IMG/VR virus record: IMGVR_UViG_3300003877_000008
Location: 1-31,953 of that record
From: a virus
Direction: 5' to 3' (one strand)
Length of the DNA: 31,953 bases
Shown: positions 16,156 through 27,417 of the stretch, piece by piece
Numbering within the stretch: the first letter of the stretch is position 1
How the letters are laid out: each line of letters begins with the position of its first letter
Program-made: the position numbers and the translations under genes
Notes under the pieces: model-generated
Told to the model about the DNA's origin: nothing
The model's input: only the letters and a program-made list of their open reading frames with translations
Databases searched by the model: none

Positions 16156-17435
16156 TGGGAGTAGATAAAAAATTATCACAATTAACGTTGGTAGAAGTAG
16201 CAGAATCTACCGATTTATTGTATATAGTTAAAGATGTTAGTGGTGTAAGTACGAGTTACGGAATAGCAGTAAGTAATATAATAAAAAACACTATTACAGG
16301 TTTAAATAGAATAATTAGCGGACAAGTTATTTGGAGTGGTTCTGGTTATACATTTCAAAGTGTAAATCTTGTATATGAACTAGATAGTGTTATTTATATA
16401 AGTAACGGAGAATCAGTTACATTAACAACACCAGATGCTACAAATGACAGATTAGATGTAATAGTAGTCACAGTCTTAGGATTAAGTTTTGTTACGGGAA
16501 CGCCAAGTGCGACACCGTTAGAACCAAGTATAGATGAGCAGACAGAAATAAAAACAAATCTGGTTTTAGTGAGTGCCTCTTCAACTGCGCCATCGGAAGT
16601 TACCTTAGAGTTAATCTATGATGAGAATGCCCAAATATTAGGTGGTGAATGGGACACTAGTACAAACGCAAGTACTCGAATAAATCTAGCAAATACACTA
16701 ACACCTATAAATCTAACAAAAGATATTTTAATAGATACTCCTTTATTTTACGATGAGATTAGCTTTGTAGCCCCATTAGGAATTACGGTAGCTGATTTTA
16801 ACAACATTAAATTTAAAGTTAAAAGTTTATCAGAATGGGCTATAAAAGACAGAATAAATGTTGAATTTTGGAATTTAGGAGTGAGAATAGGATTGTATAG
16901 TATTGATAAAACTAAATTTAATACAGCTGATTTAACAACCATTCAAGAGTTATATGTATTTGATACCGATGTGTCGTTTACAGAAACAAGATTCGATGAG
17001 ATTAAATTAGTAATTAATACAGATACAGTAAGCGGAACTGCCATCTTTATACATTTAGACGAATTTTATATACAATACGGCGCCTCAACAACAACTCCGA
17101 GTATAAATAGTGTTGGTTATGCAGAACTAAAAAGAGAATTAAAAGGAGTTGTAGATTTAGGAGATGTAAGTGGAACATTAACAATTGATTTTTCACAAGA
17201 TATAATTTATAAATTTAATATGACTGCCGATACTACATTAGCCTTTACAACAGGCAGTTTAGTAGCAGGAAAAAGTATTGAATTAATATATACAGGTAAT
17301 TTTATTTTAACACACCCAACAGGTTTTAAAGCAGACCAACTTACAGGTTTTGATGGTACACTTACAAATTACGAAACCATTTATTGTCCTGATGCAACAA
17401 CACCTATTTTTAAAGCAAGTATAGACCCACGATGA
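16155..17435 (+). CDS. Tail tip / fibre protein, probable host-recognition component
   Basis: A 426-aa, Ser/Thr-rich, beta-strand protein. The N-terminus (KKLSQLTLVEVAESTDLLYIVKD) matches the attachment segment seen at the start of many Bacteroidetes phage tip and fibre proteins, which anchors the fibre to the baseplate. The middle is variable. The C-terminus has a repeated strand pattern (GKSIELIYTGNFILTHPTG), typical of trimeric fibre or carbohydrate-binding ends. Its stop overlaps the LRR gene by four bases, suggesting the two proteins are made together. Host range function is inferred from position and composition; no enzymatic residues were recognised. Confidence 0.65.
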   Translation: MGVDKKLSQLTLVEVAESTDLLYIVKDVSGVSTSYGIAVSNIIKNTITGLNRIISGQVIWSGSGYTFQSVNLVYELDSVIYISNGESVTLTTPDATNDRLDVIVVTVLGLSFVTGTPSATPLEPSIDEQTEIKTNLVLVSASSTAPSEVTLELIYDENAQILGGEWDTSTNASTRINLANTLTPINLTKDILIDTPLFYDEISFVAPLGITVADFNNIKFKVKSLSEWAIKDRINVEFWNLGVRIGLYSIDKTKFNTADLTTIQELYVFDTDVSFTETRFDEIKLVINTDTVSGTAIFIHLDEFYIQYGASTTTPSINSVGYAELKRELKGVVDLGDVSGTLTIDFSQDIIYKFNMTADTTLAFTTGSLVAGKSIELIYTGNFILTHPTGFKADQLTGFDGTLTNYETIYCPDATTPIFKASIDPR

Positions 17436-18667
17436 TAAATATTTTAGGAAATAGGATAGTAGGTAGAAAAAAAATACCGCCACCAATAATATTAAACAGC
17501 ACATCTGTTTTAGTCGCTTGGTCTCCTGCTAGTGTTATAAACACAGGAAGTACTTTAGCTTGGACTGTAAGCGGTGGTGTTACCATAGCACGAACAGTAA
17601 TAGATGACCCTACATTTGACTTTAGTGGCAATACAGGTACTGCAAATATTGCTATTGAAAATTTAGATACAGTAACTACATTTAATGTTAATACTTTATC
17701 ATTAACTAGTGTTAATTTAGCAGGTGCAATTACATTAAGTAAATTATATATATATTCAAATTTATTAACATCTTTAGATGTTACAAGTAACACAGCATTA
17801 ACAGATTTAAGATGTGCTTCTAATTCACTTACATCATTAGATACAAGTAGTAATACCTTATTGAGTATTTTAGTTTGTAATTCAAATTCACTTACATCGT
17901 TGGATTTAACGAATAATACAGCTTTATATTTTTTATACACATATTCTAATCCATTAGGTACTTTAGATGTTTCTACAAATATATTATTACAGTATTTATA
18001 TTGCTATTCTAATTCTTTATCAGCTTTAGATGTTTCTACAAACACAGCACTAATAACTTTATTTTGCCACACAAATTCAATAACCACCTTAGATGTTTCT
18101 ACAAATACAGTATTAAAAACTTTATTTTGTTATTCAAATACGATGACATCTTTAATTACTACGAATGCACCGTTAATAGATTTAAGATGTAGTTCAAACT
18201 CGTTAACAGCATTAGATGTATCAACTAATACAGCGTTGACTAACATCTCTTGTCAAGAAAATTCATTAACAGCATTAGATATTTCTACAAATACAAGTTT
18301 AACATCGTTAGATATTTCTATAAACTCAATATCAACATTAGATGTATCTGCAAATACTGCTTTAACTACTTTAAGAGTTCAGACTAATAGCTTATCAGCA
18401 TTAGATGTTTCCACAAACACAAGTCTAACACTTTTATATTGTCAAGAAAATTCATTAACAGCTTTAGATATTTCTACAAATACAGTATTAAAAACTTTAT
18501 TATGTTCGGGCAATAGTCTAACATCTACAGAGATAGATAATATTTATATAGATTTAGACACTAATGGAGTAACCGATGGTACTTTAACAATAGATATAGG
18601 AAGGACAACAGCAAGCGATACTGCCAGGGCAAATTTAATAACTAAAGGCTGGACTATAACCGATTAA
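17432..18667 (+). CDS. Leucine-rich-repeat tail protein, probable receptor-binding protein
   Basis: A 411-aa protein with a beta-rich head (residues 1-90), a leucine-rich-repeat solenoid (about 91-362) and a short C-terminal cap. The repeat unit is 21 residues of the form LxxLDVSxNTxLxxLxCxxNS. I count 12 clear copies plus one degenerate copy in front. Most copies keep a Cys at the same position, which would form a cysteine ladder as in the InlJ-type LRRs of Listeria. Such solenoids bind proteins or sugars, so receptor contact is plausible but inferred. It overlaps the fibre gene by four bases and is the last large structural gene. Confidence 0.75.
   Translation: MINILGNRIVGRKKIPPPIILNSTSVLVAWSPASVINTGSTLAWTVSGGVTIARTVIDDPTFDFSGNTGTANIAIENLDTVTTFNVNTLSLTSVNLAGAITLSKLYIYSNLLTSLDVTSNTALTDLRCASNSLTSLDTSSNTLLSILVCNSNSLTSLDLTNNTALYFLYTYSNPLGTLDVSTNILLQYLYCYSNSLSALDVSTNTALITLFCHTNSITTLDVSTNTVLKTLFCYSNTMTSLITTNAPLIDLRCSSNSLTALDVSTNTALTNISCQENSLTALDISTNTSLTSLDISINSISTLDVSANTALTTLRVQTNSLSALDVSTNTSLTLLYCQENSLTALDISTNTVLKTLLCSGNSLTSTEIDNIYIDLDTNGVTDGTLTIDIGRTTASDTARANLITKGWTITD
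17702..18517 (+). repeat. 63-bp tandem LRR-coding repeats
   Basis: The LRR solenoid is encoded by about 13 in-frame 63-base units. Units carry near-identical DNA words such as TTAGATGTTTCTACAAA and AATTCATTAACAGC. Similarity is high enough that recombination or slippage could add or drop whole 21-residue repeats without breaking the frame. Confidence 0.75.
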
Positions 18668-24434: not shown

Positions 24435-24863
24435 ATGGAAAAGATAGATGTAATATCAGAAGAGATTGAAAATTATTTCAATATAACAAAAGAGGAGTTA
24501 TTTGGTAAAAATAGACTTAGATATATAGTTGAAGCTAGACAATTTTTTCATTTCTTTTCTTGGAAATATACGCTTAGACCACTTGGTAAAATTGGTAGCT
24601 ACTATGGACACAATTTCACACACGCAACAGTTATACATTCACGAAAAATGATATTTGATTTAATGGTTGTTAAGAGGCATTTTAAGAAATTTAATGAACT
24701 TAATACTATTATAAAAGAAGCTATTTCTAATTATGAAATGGTATCTAAAACAGAAAATAATTATAAAAAATATATTTGCAGCAAAATACTAGGTTGTAAG
24801 TCAAAAGATGAAATCCATTTATTATTACAAAAAGAAATAAGTTATGACGAATTATCCGTTTAA
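24435..24863 (+). CDS. DnaA domain IV-like DNA-binding protein
   Basis: A 142-aa protein resembling the C-terminal DNA-binding domain of the bacterial initiator DnaA, but without the ATPase part. An opening YFNITKEELFGKNRLRYIVEARQFF corresponds to the domain IV start (DnaA: ...sRKREIvlARQiAmYL). FTHATVIHSRK (61-71) matches the DnaA signature helix, where RDHSTVLHA is usual. Here the DH of that signature reads TH. It could direct replication initiation on phage DNA or compete with host DnaA. It sits just before the replisome organiser and helicase genes. Confidence 0.75.
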   Translation: MEKIDVISEEIENYFNITKEELFGKNRLRYIVEARQFFHFFSWKYTLRPLGKIGSYYGHNFTHATVIHSRKMIFDLMVVKRHFKKFNELNTIIKEAISNYEMVSKTENNYKKYICSKILGCKSKDEIHLLLQKEISYDELSV

Positions 24864-24975: not shown

Positions 24976-24983
24976 TATATTTG
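24976..24983 (+). promoter_or_regulatory. -7 box, TATATTTG, upstream of the structured RNA
   Basis: TATATTTG exactly matches the Bacteroidetes -7 consensus TAnnTTTG. It lies one base after the preceding stop and about five bases before the first stem of the structured RNA. The -33 box is weak. Transcription starting near 24988-24990 would begin directly at the RNA element. Confidence 0.6.
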
Positions 24984-24986
24984 TAA

Positions 24987-25085
24987 AAGTTACGGTTTGG
25001 CAACATAGTAACTTAAAGAAATTATCATAAACCTTATAAATGAAAGTAGAAGCCAAACCCTACTAGATTTTATAAGGTTTTTTAA
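24987..25085 (+). ncRNA. Candidate structured RNA / cis-regulatory leader with kissing loop
   Basis: Stem 1: AAGTTAC (24987-24993) pairs with GTAACTT (25008-25014). Its loop contains GGTTTGGC (24994-25001). Stem 2: AAACCTTATAAA (25029-25040) pairs perfectly with TTTATAAGGTTT (25069-25080), followed by a U-rich stretch like a terminator. Inside stem 2 a third small stem, AGTAG (25045-25049) with CTACT (25060-25064), presents GCCAAACC (25052-25059). That is the exact complement of the stem 1 loop, so an 8-bp kissing interaction is possible. AAACC and GGTTT each occur twice, so alternative pairings could switch the terminator-like stem on or off. The element lies between two early genes. Confidence 0.68.
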
Positions 25086-25102: not shown

Positions 25103-25333
25103 ATGACTTTAAAAGCATTTTTAGAACAAAATAGAATAACTGCTACACCTGACGAAAGAAGTAGTTTAGGACGTATGTTAGCTGAGTTAATAACATATAG
25201 AATGAAAGTTGTAGAGGATGGACATTTAGTTTTAGACTATCCAATTAGATTTTTGAAAAGCGATATTATAGTAGATGTTATACTTCAATTCTTTAAAGAT
25301 ATTGAAATTAATAAACTTTCAGAAACATTTTAG
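25103..25333 (+). CDS. Hypothetical early protein, 76 aa
   Basis: No family is recognised. The N-terminal half is helical and charged (ERSSLGRMLAELITYRMKV). The C-terminal half has a short strand, LVLDYPIRFL, and a helix IIVDVILQFFKDIEI. It is soluble with no cysteines. It is the first gene after the structured RNA leader, so it and the downstream replication genes could be controlled by that element. The next gene's true start (25335) is one base after this stop. Confidence 0.65.
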   Translation: MTLKAFLEQNRITATPDERSSLGRMLAELITYRMKVVEDGHLVLDYPIRFLKSDIIVDVILQFFKDIEINKLSETF

Positions 25334-25334
25334 T

Positions 25335-25979
25335 ATGGATAATAGCGGATGGATAAAAATACATAGAAAAATGTTAGATTGGGAATGGTACGATGATTCA
25401 AATACTTTTAGATTGTTTTTACACTTACTTTTAAAAGCAAATCATAAGCCTAAAAAATATAGAGGTGTATTAATAAATACTGGTCAAGTTATGACTGGTT
25501 TAAATTTACTTTCAAAGCAAACAGGGTTAAGCATTCAGAATATTAGGACTGCATTAGGTAACTTGGAACTAACAAACGAGGTAACAAACAAAACAAGCAG
25601 CAAAGGTTCTATAATCCAAATAGTTAAGTATAAAGATTATCAAGTGCTAACAAGCAAACAACAAACTGATAACAAACAACTAACAACTAACAAGAAGTAT
25701 ATATCTAAAGATATATACCCATCGTTTTCTGATTTTTGGGAGTTGTACGATAAGAAAGTAGGTAAAGAATTAGCTATTAAAAAATGGAATAAATTAAAAC
25801 AATCTGATAAAGAAAAAATTATTAAAGTAATTCCAAATTATATTTTAAATAATCCTGAAAAACAATTTCGCAAAAATCCATCAAGTTATCTAAATCAAAA
25901 AAGTTGGAATGATGAATTAATAATAAAAACAAAAAAACAAATTATTTACGGTGAAAATCCTTATAAAAGTCAATTATGA
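25335..25979 (+). CDS. Replisome organiser / DnaD-like replication protein
   Basis: This is a replication initiation protein of the phage replisome-organiser type. The opening DNSGWIKIHRKMLDWEWYDD is the family's hallmark N-terminus, followed by a winged-helix block (LFLHLLLKANHKPKK, NTGQVMTGLNLLSKQTGLS). A Gln/Lys-rich linker leads to a C-terminal helical part with SFSDFWELYDKKVGK and NPSSYLNQKSWND. I set the start at 25335 because the hallmark begins there. An earlier in-frame ATG at 25275 lies inside the preceding gene and would add 20 unrelated residues. It precedes the helicase genes, as expected for a loader system. Confidence 0.85.
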   Translation: MDNSGWIKIHRKMLDWEWYDDSNTFRLFLHLLLKANHKPKKYRGVLINTGQVMTGLNLLSKQTGLSIQNIRTALGNLELTNEVTNKTSSKGSIIQIVKYKDYQVLTSKQQTDNKQLTTNKKYISKDIYPSFSDFWELYDKKVGKELAIKKWNKLKQSDKEKIIKVIPNYILNNPEKQFRKNPSSYLNQKSWNDELIIKTKKQIIYGENPYKSQL

Positions 25980-26404
25980 AATATAAAACTGAAAAAGCAA
26001 TAAATAGGTTATCATGGAGATTCTCAAATAACAAATCTTTCAAACCAAATGAAGAAGACATTGACAGTCTTAATTGCATTCTTGAATGGATGAATAGAGA
26101 GATAAAAAATAACGTTAGAAACAACCAGTTATTTGCAAAGCTATATATTTACTTTTTGCACCAAAACATTAAATTTTATAATTCAACTGTTTTTGATAAC
26201 ATACCGCAAAAAGATTTAAGCAAATTATTAGATCTTCCGCTGGATTCTTTTTATAAATCATTTCATAAAGATTTACATTTCAACCAATTTAATAGAGTAA
26301 AAACAATAGAAGATTTAAAAAGTGTAAAGGAAAGTTATACTATTGAAAATGTTACTGAAAGATTAGATTTTATGATTAATGAAGCTCTAAATAGATTCTC
26401 ATGA
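25976..26404 (+). CDS. Hypothetical replication-region protein, 142 aa
   Basis: No family is recognised. The protein is mostly helical (INRLSWRFSNNKSFKPNEE; LNCILEWMNREIKNNV; FAKLYIYFLHQNIKF). It overlaps the replisome organiser and the helicase by four bases at each side. In phage replication operons, a gene between an initiator and a DnaB-like helicase is often the helicase loader or an adaptor. There is no Walker motif here, so it would be an adaptor rather than a DnaC-type ATPase. The role is inferred from position. Confidence 0.62.
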   Translation: MKYKTEKAINRLSWRFSNNKSFKPNEEDIDSLNCILEWMNREIKNNVRNNQLFAKLYIYFLHQNIKFYNSTVFDNIPQKDLSKLLDLPLDSFYKSFHKDLHFNQFNRVKTIEDLKSVKESYTIENVTERLDFMINEALNRFS

Positions 26405-27417
26405 TTAAATTAATAGATAAAAAAAACAAAATAGAAGTTGAAGAAAATATTTATTATAGTAAATTTATAGTAAATAAAAATAAAATAAATACAGATTTAT
26501 TAGATTTCTTTAATGGTAAAATTAAAAGAGGTTATAAGTCTGGAATCTATTTATTAGATAAACATTTTATTTTTAAAGACAATGAATTTTATGTGTTAAC
26601 TGGTAAAAAAGGTTCTGGTAAAACTACTATTACACAGGCATTGCAATTAATAGGAAGTATATCAAATGATTTAATTTGGGTAGTTTGCTTTCAAGAAAAT
26701 AGTGAATGGTCTATGAAATTGAATTATATGAATTATTTATTAGGAGATTTTGCATTAAATATTAAAAAAACAAATTTAGAATTATATAAAAAGGTAAGTG
26801 ATTGGGTGGATGAGCATTTTATTTTTATAGAAGTAGACGATATTAAAACAGCTTTATATGTAACAAAAAATTTAATAAAAAAAGGTAAAAAGATACATGC
26901 TGTTTTATTAGACCCCATTAATTCTTTTAGAAATGGATTCCAAGAAACTGGAAATGGTTATTCAGATGGTGTTGTTGCAGCAACTGAAATTTTAAAATTT
27001 ACAAAAAAATGGTGCAGCGTTCATGTATCTCAACATCCTACAATGGCAAATCAACGAAAATTAGAAGCTGTTACAAGTTACGATGCAGAGGGTGGATGGT
27101 TCTTGAATAAAGCGAGTTTCACGTACGTAATAGACAGAGAAAAAGGCACTAATCTAAATAAAATAATTGTTGAAAATGTAAGGAATAAACACACAGGAGG
27201 TTCAGAAACGGATAGTGAAAATCCTTTAATTTTAGAATGGTCTCCAAACAATATAAACATTAGATATAATAATGATATACACAAATCAGTTAATGTAATT
27301 CAAAAAATTATTTTAGAAAATGGTTTGTTTGAATTAACTGAATCATCTAAAAATGAATTAATTGAAAGTAATAAAAATGAATTTGATAGAGAAATTTTTG
27401 AAGATAACTTTATTTAA
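26401..27417 (+). CDS. DnaB/Twinkle-like replicative helicase
   Basis: This is a ring-type 5'-3' DNA helicase of the RecA-like superfamily 4. Walker A is GKKGSGKTT (68-76). A following VVCFQENS carries the candidate catalytic E99. Walker B is HAVLLDP with D171. Motif H3 is VHVSQHP with Q211, and VENVRNKHTGG (258-267) carries the candidate arginine finger. The DnaB primase-interaction domain is absent and the N-terminal ~55 residues are a short extension. The ATPase core is otherwise complete at 338 aa. No primase is recognised in the window, so priming may depend on the host. Confidence 0.88.
   Translation: MIKLIDKKNKIEVEENIYYSKFIVNKNKINTDLLDFFNGKIKRGYKSGIYLLDKHFIFKDNEFYVLTGKKGSGKTTITQALQLIGSISNDLIWVVCFQENSEWSMKLNYMNYLLGDFALNIKKTNLELYKKVSDWVDEHFIFIEVDDIKTALYVTKNLIKKGKKIHAVLLDPINSFRNGFQETGNGYSDGVVAATEILKFTKKWCSVHVSQHPTMANQRKLEAVTSYDAEGGWFLNKASFTYVIDREKGTNLNKIIVENVRNKHTGGSETDSENPLILEWSPNNINIRYNNDIHKSVNVIQKIILENGLFELTESSKNELIESNKNEFDREIFEDNFI

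Follow-up and report, generated by a model that had tools for sequence, protein, structure and literature searches.

Comparative analysis of a 31,953-nt stretch of viral DNA (positions 1–31,953 of IMG/VR record IMGVR_UViG_3300003877_000008, hereafter the window) revealed a structured RNA of ~95 nt whose predicted fold, including an 8-bp kissing interaction between two loops, is shown to be real by covariation among homologues rather than by experiment, with a kiss formed either within one molecule or between molecules being compatible with the sequences. From its position, we infer with a probability of about one half that this RNA acts as a leader or attenuator of a replication-initiation operon.

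In the window, the element lies on the plus strand, as do the promoter box and the neighbouring replication-module genes described below, and it is directly preceded by a -7 promoter box of the flavobacterial sigma-A type, an exact TAnnTTTG (TATATTTG, 24976–24983). Stem 1 (AAGTTAC/GTAACTT, 24987–24993/25008–25014), which is supported by both the computed fold and covariation, closes a 14-nt loop consisting of the first kiss strand (GGTTTGGC, 24994–25001) and the unpaired remainder AACATA (25002–25007), the ATA of which is conserved by column. An A-rich linker with a conserved A at column 36 (25015–25028) connects stem 1 to stem 2, a terminator-like hairpin followed by a U-tract (25029–25083) that was identified by covariation and U count and whose arms pair in the fold as a perfect 12-bp helix (AAACCTTATAAA/TTTATAAGGTTT, 25029–25040/25069–25080). 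Inside this hairpin, an internal loop (TGAA/AGAT, at which the family shows tandem GA) and the nested stem 3 together occupy 25041–25068; stem 3 itself (AGTAG/CTACT, 25045–25049/25060–25064), also supported by covariation, presents in its loop the second, covarying kiss strand (GCCAAACC, 25052–25059), the exact complement of GGTTTGGC. The box, stem 1, the nested stem and the 12-bp hairpin were all found where the original prediction, made from this one sequence, had placed them. The computed folding energy was -21.9 kcal/mol, as compared to -12.0 kcal/mol (sd 2.6) for shuffled sequences (z = -3.8), and none of 200 shuffles was as low.

Homologues were collected by several routes. A blastn search of phage records returned matches to a replication gene and one match limited to the RNA, in Tenacibaculum phage Gundel_1, where the copy occupies an unannotated stretch before an antirepressor gene and carries the altered kiss GCTCTCAC/GTGAGAGC. 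Further members came from pattern scans of IMG/VR and one GTDB genome scan, and the resulting alignment holds 100 places (96 distinct) from IMG/VR contigs, two Flavobacteriaceae genomes and the named phages Gundel_1 and FL-1. Two pattern scans demanded loop complementarity, one of which over-represents GGTCTCAC, and two patterns were loop-free (GTTAC-N8-RACATAGTAAC and AATGAANNNGAMGNNNNNNCNNNNGGATTT); an extra search pattern, CGGTTTGGCRACATAG, gave zero new members. In the loop-free scans, matches having the other family features also had a kiss partner, and the covariation is therefore not an artefact of sequence selection. Specifically, among the matches to the GTTAC pattern, the loops GGTTTGGC, GGTTTGCC, GCTTCGAC, GGTCTCAC and GGCTTCAC were each accompanied by a perfect 8-nt partner further downstream. 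Among the matches listed for AATGAANNNGAMGNNNNNNCNNNNGGATTT, 72 had a perfect partner, namely GGTCTCAC (31), GCTCTCAC (15), GTTCTCAC (10), GATCTCAC (8), GCTTCCAC (6), GTTCCGAC (1) and GGTCTGAC (1); by inspection, eleven others pair with a one-base bulge and two are truncated by a contig end, while the remainder comprises one broken or chimeric copy (L364) and matches lacking the remaining family features. In L364 (around 800–880), mismatches affect stem 1 as well as the kiss (GGTCTGAC against GTGAGAGC), and the copy looks like a recombinant or an assembly chimera of two homologues. A subgroup (L210, L214, L255, L266 and similar) has a longer stem 3 (GCAAGG/CCTTGC), and its opposite strand also reads TTTG plus a complementary pair, so that the pattern matches it on both strands. 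One further match, L300, was rejected as an ordinary palindrome.

The covariance model was built in two rounds (R1 and R2) with the kiss left out of the fitted structure, the pseudoknot being added only for pair counting; the counts are thus biased in favour of the nested stems, which the model fitted, and not of the kiss. Across the 96 distinct homologues, 97.8% of cells in the helices and the kiss were standard pairs, and the covariation check proposed in the original prediction for stem 1, stem 2 and the kiss, here with stem 3 included, gave compensatory change on both sides for 27 of the 28 pairs. All five modelled pairs covaried in stem 1 (99.4% paired), as did all ten in stem 2 and all five in stem 3 (95.2% paired). 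The kissing loop, which had been proposed from a single pair of complementary loops, was likewise confirmed, with 99.1% paired cells and covariation at seven of its eight pairs; it is nearly always a perfect 8-bp duplex and is swapped as a unit (GGTTTGGC, GGTCTCAC, GCTCTCAC, GCTTCCAC, GCTTCGAC and others). Every covariation measure exceeded all 500 shuffles, and controls in which the pairing was slid fell to 32–44% paired.

G-U cells outnumbered A-C cells by 143 to 8 across the family, indicating that selection acts on the transcribed RNA strand and disfavouring a structure formed at the DNA level. Conservation also extends to unpaired positions, comprising the loop-1 ATA (A22, T23 and A25 are kept in 88–93 of 96), the A that opens loop 3, one linker A and the tandem GA, which is conserved on both sides of the internal loop between stems 2 and 3. 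The kiss duplexes in isolation have a computed energy of about -12 kcal/mol, and the linker, 11–18 nt long among members, would have to bridge a full stack of stem 1, kiss, stem 3 and stem 2; any strain arising there would link the kiss with the terminator.

The ends of the putative transcript were examined across the family as well. By itself, TAnnTTTG is uninformative in the window (65 observed and 61 expected), and it counts as evidence because its position beside the RNA is conserved: in 38 of 45 members that had been fetched without requiring the box, an exact copy lies 1–5 nt upstream of the RNA, as compared to 1.5% of random windows. The original prediction had noted the box in this one sequence, and its placement proves to be a family trait. 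In F. psychrophilum, the box is located at -12 to -5 (PMC9723704), and the predicted start is therefore at the base of stem 1, about 24988 in the window. At the other end, the six positions 3' of stem 2 are U in 525 of 600 cases across the family, and stem 2 with its U-tract is thus terminator-like, a putative intrinsic terminator. A generic scanner detected neither element, as the promoters that it seeks are of the E. coli type and its terminators have short loops.

The genes around the RNA point to replication initiation. The gene upstream in the window encodes a DNA-binding domain of the DnaA C-terminal (domain IV) type (24435–24863; PF08299, E = 1.4e-13, 51 bits with the cut-off at 31.5). 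Downstream, a small ORF with sub-threshold matches only starts 18 nt past the RNA (25103–25333) and is followed by a DnaD-like helicase loader or replication initiation protein (25335–25979; phrog_2514, E = 6.9e-21), a 142-aa ORF without assigned function and a DnaB-like ATPase of the primase/helicase type (26401–27417; phrog_18375, E = 2.1e-19). The RNA sits at the same place in Cellulophaga phi18:3 and Polaribacter P12002L. Across the family, the next ORF mostly begins 10–22 nt past the RNA, and at 88 of 95 loci it is co-directional; in 57 of 82 loci, the three genes nearest downstream include a member of the loader cluster. The idea that the RNA, as a leader or small RNA, controls replication genes is upheld in so far as it recurs before loader and helicase genes; the control itself is suggested by position. 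In 22 of the 82 loci, neither a loader nor a helicase cluster is nearby, which counts against an attenuator of a replication operon, and examples away from replication include the antirepressor gene in Gundel_1 and an HNH-type gene in L044. The first downstream ORF varies widely across loci, and the RNA is thus not tied to one protein, with the reservation that gene calling relied on a simple ORF finder, so that individual small ORFs may be wrong.

Several side observations concern the same loci and the rest of the window. About a third of loci have a stand-alone DnaA C-terminal-domain gene (a cluster of 33) directly upstream of the RNA; these genes were assigned by clustering and Pfam, a crude motif regex having found few and not being relied on, and the protein is possibly origin-binding or DnaA-competing. 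The RNA directly precedes a gene for an HNH/AP2-type protein in about 8 loci, and the copy at L044:3134-3230 stands with its downstream 161-aa ORF alone among opposite-strand genes, like a mobile cassette. Elsewhere in the window, a gene for a CHRD-domain protein at the end of the contig (31358–31933) has a GC content of about 0.39–0.40, as compared to 0.25–0.30 nearby, with no GC skew, and this region may have been acquired recently or be a chimeric end of the contig. A long repeat-rich ORF in the structural region (17432–18667) encodes leucine-rich repeats of the LDVSTNTALT type, and GC skew is near zero around it, over 17–19 kb.

The family is common in environmental phages of Flavobacteriia, with at least 96 distinct homologues, and is unannotated in the named phages checked. 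These include Tenacibaculum Gundel_1, Flavobacterium FL-1, Cellulophaga phi18:3 and Cellulophaga phi10:1; the phi10:1 kiss is 7 nt by inspection, although it was not picked out by the automated kiss check. Weak scores (E about 0.05) were obtained for Flavobacterium 11b and Polaribacter P12002L, in which the 8-nt kiss and the helices are visible by eye, and the RNA was not found in phi38:1, Panino or 6H. Among roughly 1,200 bacterial genomes (of the same family, order and class, in samples that may overlap), two carry the RNA, both copies lying before replication-type genes, and a host housekeeping RNA was rejected on these grounds. Two phage contigs hold two copies each on the minus strand, with kisses that differ within the contig: GGTCTCAC and GCTTCTGAC in L280 (1298–1392 and 3704–3794), and GCTCTCAC and CATCCTAC in L347 (5500–5590 and 7872–7964), as if arranged to avoid cross-pairing.

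In the reading that we favour, RNA polymerase would use the TAnnTTTG promoter and, as suggested by the box, begin transcription at the base of stem 1. The nascent ~95-nt RNA would then form stem 1 and subsequently stem 3, the loops of which would join in the 8-bp kiss, before the polymerase meets the stem-2 terminator and its U-tract, mostly 10–22 nt before the next start codon. Since the next gene lies directly behind the terminator, leaving no room for a second promoter, it would be transcribed only by polymerases that read through, and this requirement suggests that the RNA is an attenuating leader through which expression of the replication-initiation operon is set and perhaps conditionally released; the kiss may hold the leader in one state and thereby modulate termination. 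The arrangement of a promoter, a leader bearing a terminator and a same-strand downstream gene is that of an attenuator. An internal TAnnTTTG occurs in only 2 of 79 loci, a scan that weak or non-TAnnTTTG promoters could escape. The gene upstream of the RNA is divergent in L287, L053 and L044, where the next ORF lies 15–21 nt behind the terminator; hence, the RNA's promoter would head the unit, and the next ORF would be reached only through the terminator. The tight spacing on both sides of the RNA could merely reflect a compact genome. No conserved antiterminator pairing that would open the terminator was found when tested as loop 1 against the 5' arm of stem 2, the mean longest match across the family being 2.65 nt, as compared to 2.68 nt with arms exchanged between members. 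Accordingly, the two exchangeable terminator pairings of the original prediction are not conserved and amount to chance-level complementarity, a coincidence of the window sequence; that AAACC and GGTTT each occur twice in the window RNA is literally true but not meaningful.

The main rival, which we regard as possible but rather doubtful, is an autonomous trans-acting small RNA, stable at ~95 nt, whose place among replication genes would merely be the site of an early gene; it might, for example, bind a phage or host protein through the loop-1 AUA, the GA pairs and the linker. Its own promoter and terminator, as judged by sequence, would make the RNA a complete transcription unit, and the conserved unpaired positions, the varying first downstream genes, the two contigs with two differently kissing copies and the copies away from replication genes all fit such a role. 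However, the RNA is nearly always co-directional with, and directly before, the next gene, and where it heads the operon, that gene still needs read-through. Furthermore, a scan of the whole window found GGTTTGGC and its complement only within the RNA element, which leaves the window phage with no base-pairing target of that kind. Attenuator and small RNA are not mutually exclusive.

Processive antitermination in cis, in which the folded nascent RNA binds polymerase and makes it resist the RNA's own and later terminators, is improbable: the 5'-terminal position beside a promoter, the two-hairpin fold and the early-operon start recall put RNA, but the element, unlike put, holds its own conserved terminator and U-tract, and a literature search found no paper supporting the likeness. 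Least probable is a transcript that primes or opens a phage replication origin, which fits the replication-initiation module and the adjacent DnaA-domain gene (in the window and phi18:3) but not the absence of convincing iteron-like or origin-like repeats around the RNA in the window, the selection for a closed, terminated fold in the RNA strand, or the copies away from replication genes.

Beyond an attenuating leader of the replication operon, we only tentatively entertain a new class of RNA, in which an 8-bp kiss with a swappable code would reach into the terminator hairpin and govern polymerase entry into the replication operon; in phages with two copies, different kisses would keep the copies apart. 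The RNA marks the replication-initiation module in many phages of Flavobacteriia and offers a handle on how such phages switch on DNA replication; with cultured hosts existing for Cellulophaga phi18:3 and phi10:1 and Flavobacterium FL-1 and 11b, it is directly testable.

We assign the RNA to no known family, because a conserved antiterminator, tested in one form, was not found; by its position, it would work like an attenuator. Searches of the window and 15 homologue loci against Rfam 15 (4227 families) gave no match at the gathering cut-off and chance-level matches only at a permissive threshold, and no published description was found in the open-access literature. With attenuators and riboswitch-like leaders that use intrinsic terminators, the RNA shares a promoter, a structured leader, a terminator and, at most a few tens of bases further on, a co-directional gene; it differs from them in that the structured part joins the terminator hairpin by a loop–loop kiss and in that neither a conserved mutually exclusive antiterminator, in the one form tested, nor an Rfam match was found. 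The put RNA of phage HK022 is likewise a phage RNA in which an early transcript opens with a pair of hairpins, whereas here the second hairpin is the putative terminator and the loops kiss. The pRNA of phi29, a phage RNA of ~100 nt, has two complementary covarying loops, as does the present RNA, but here the kiss is 8 bp, its strands are complementary within one molecule and the RNA is located at replication genes; among the genes of the window is one for a large terminase subunit of the ordinary kind (phrog_38, E = 2.9e-87), and with the homologues lying by replication genes, the RNA does not belong to a phi29-type packaging motor. Phage small RNAs with their own promoter and terminator are likewise complete transcription units, of ~95 nt here, whereas for the present RNA no base-pairing target was seen in the window, and it is locked in position before the next gene. 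The RNA family appears new, while the kinds of function likely for it, attenuating leader or phage small RNA, are already known.
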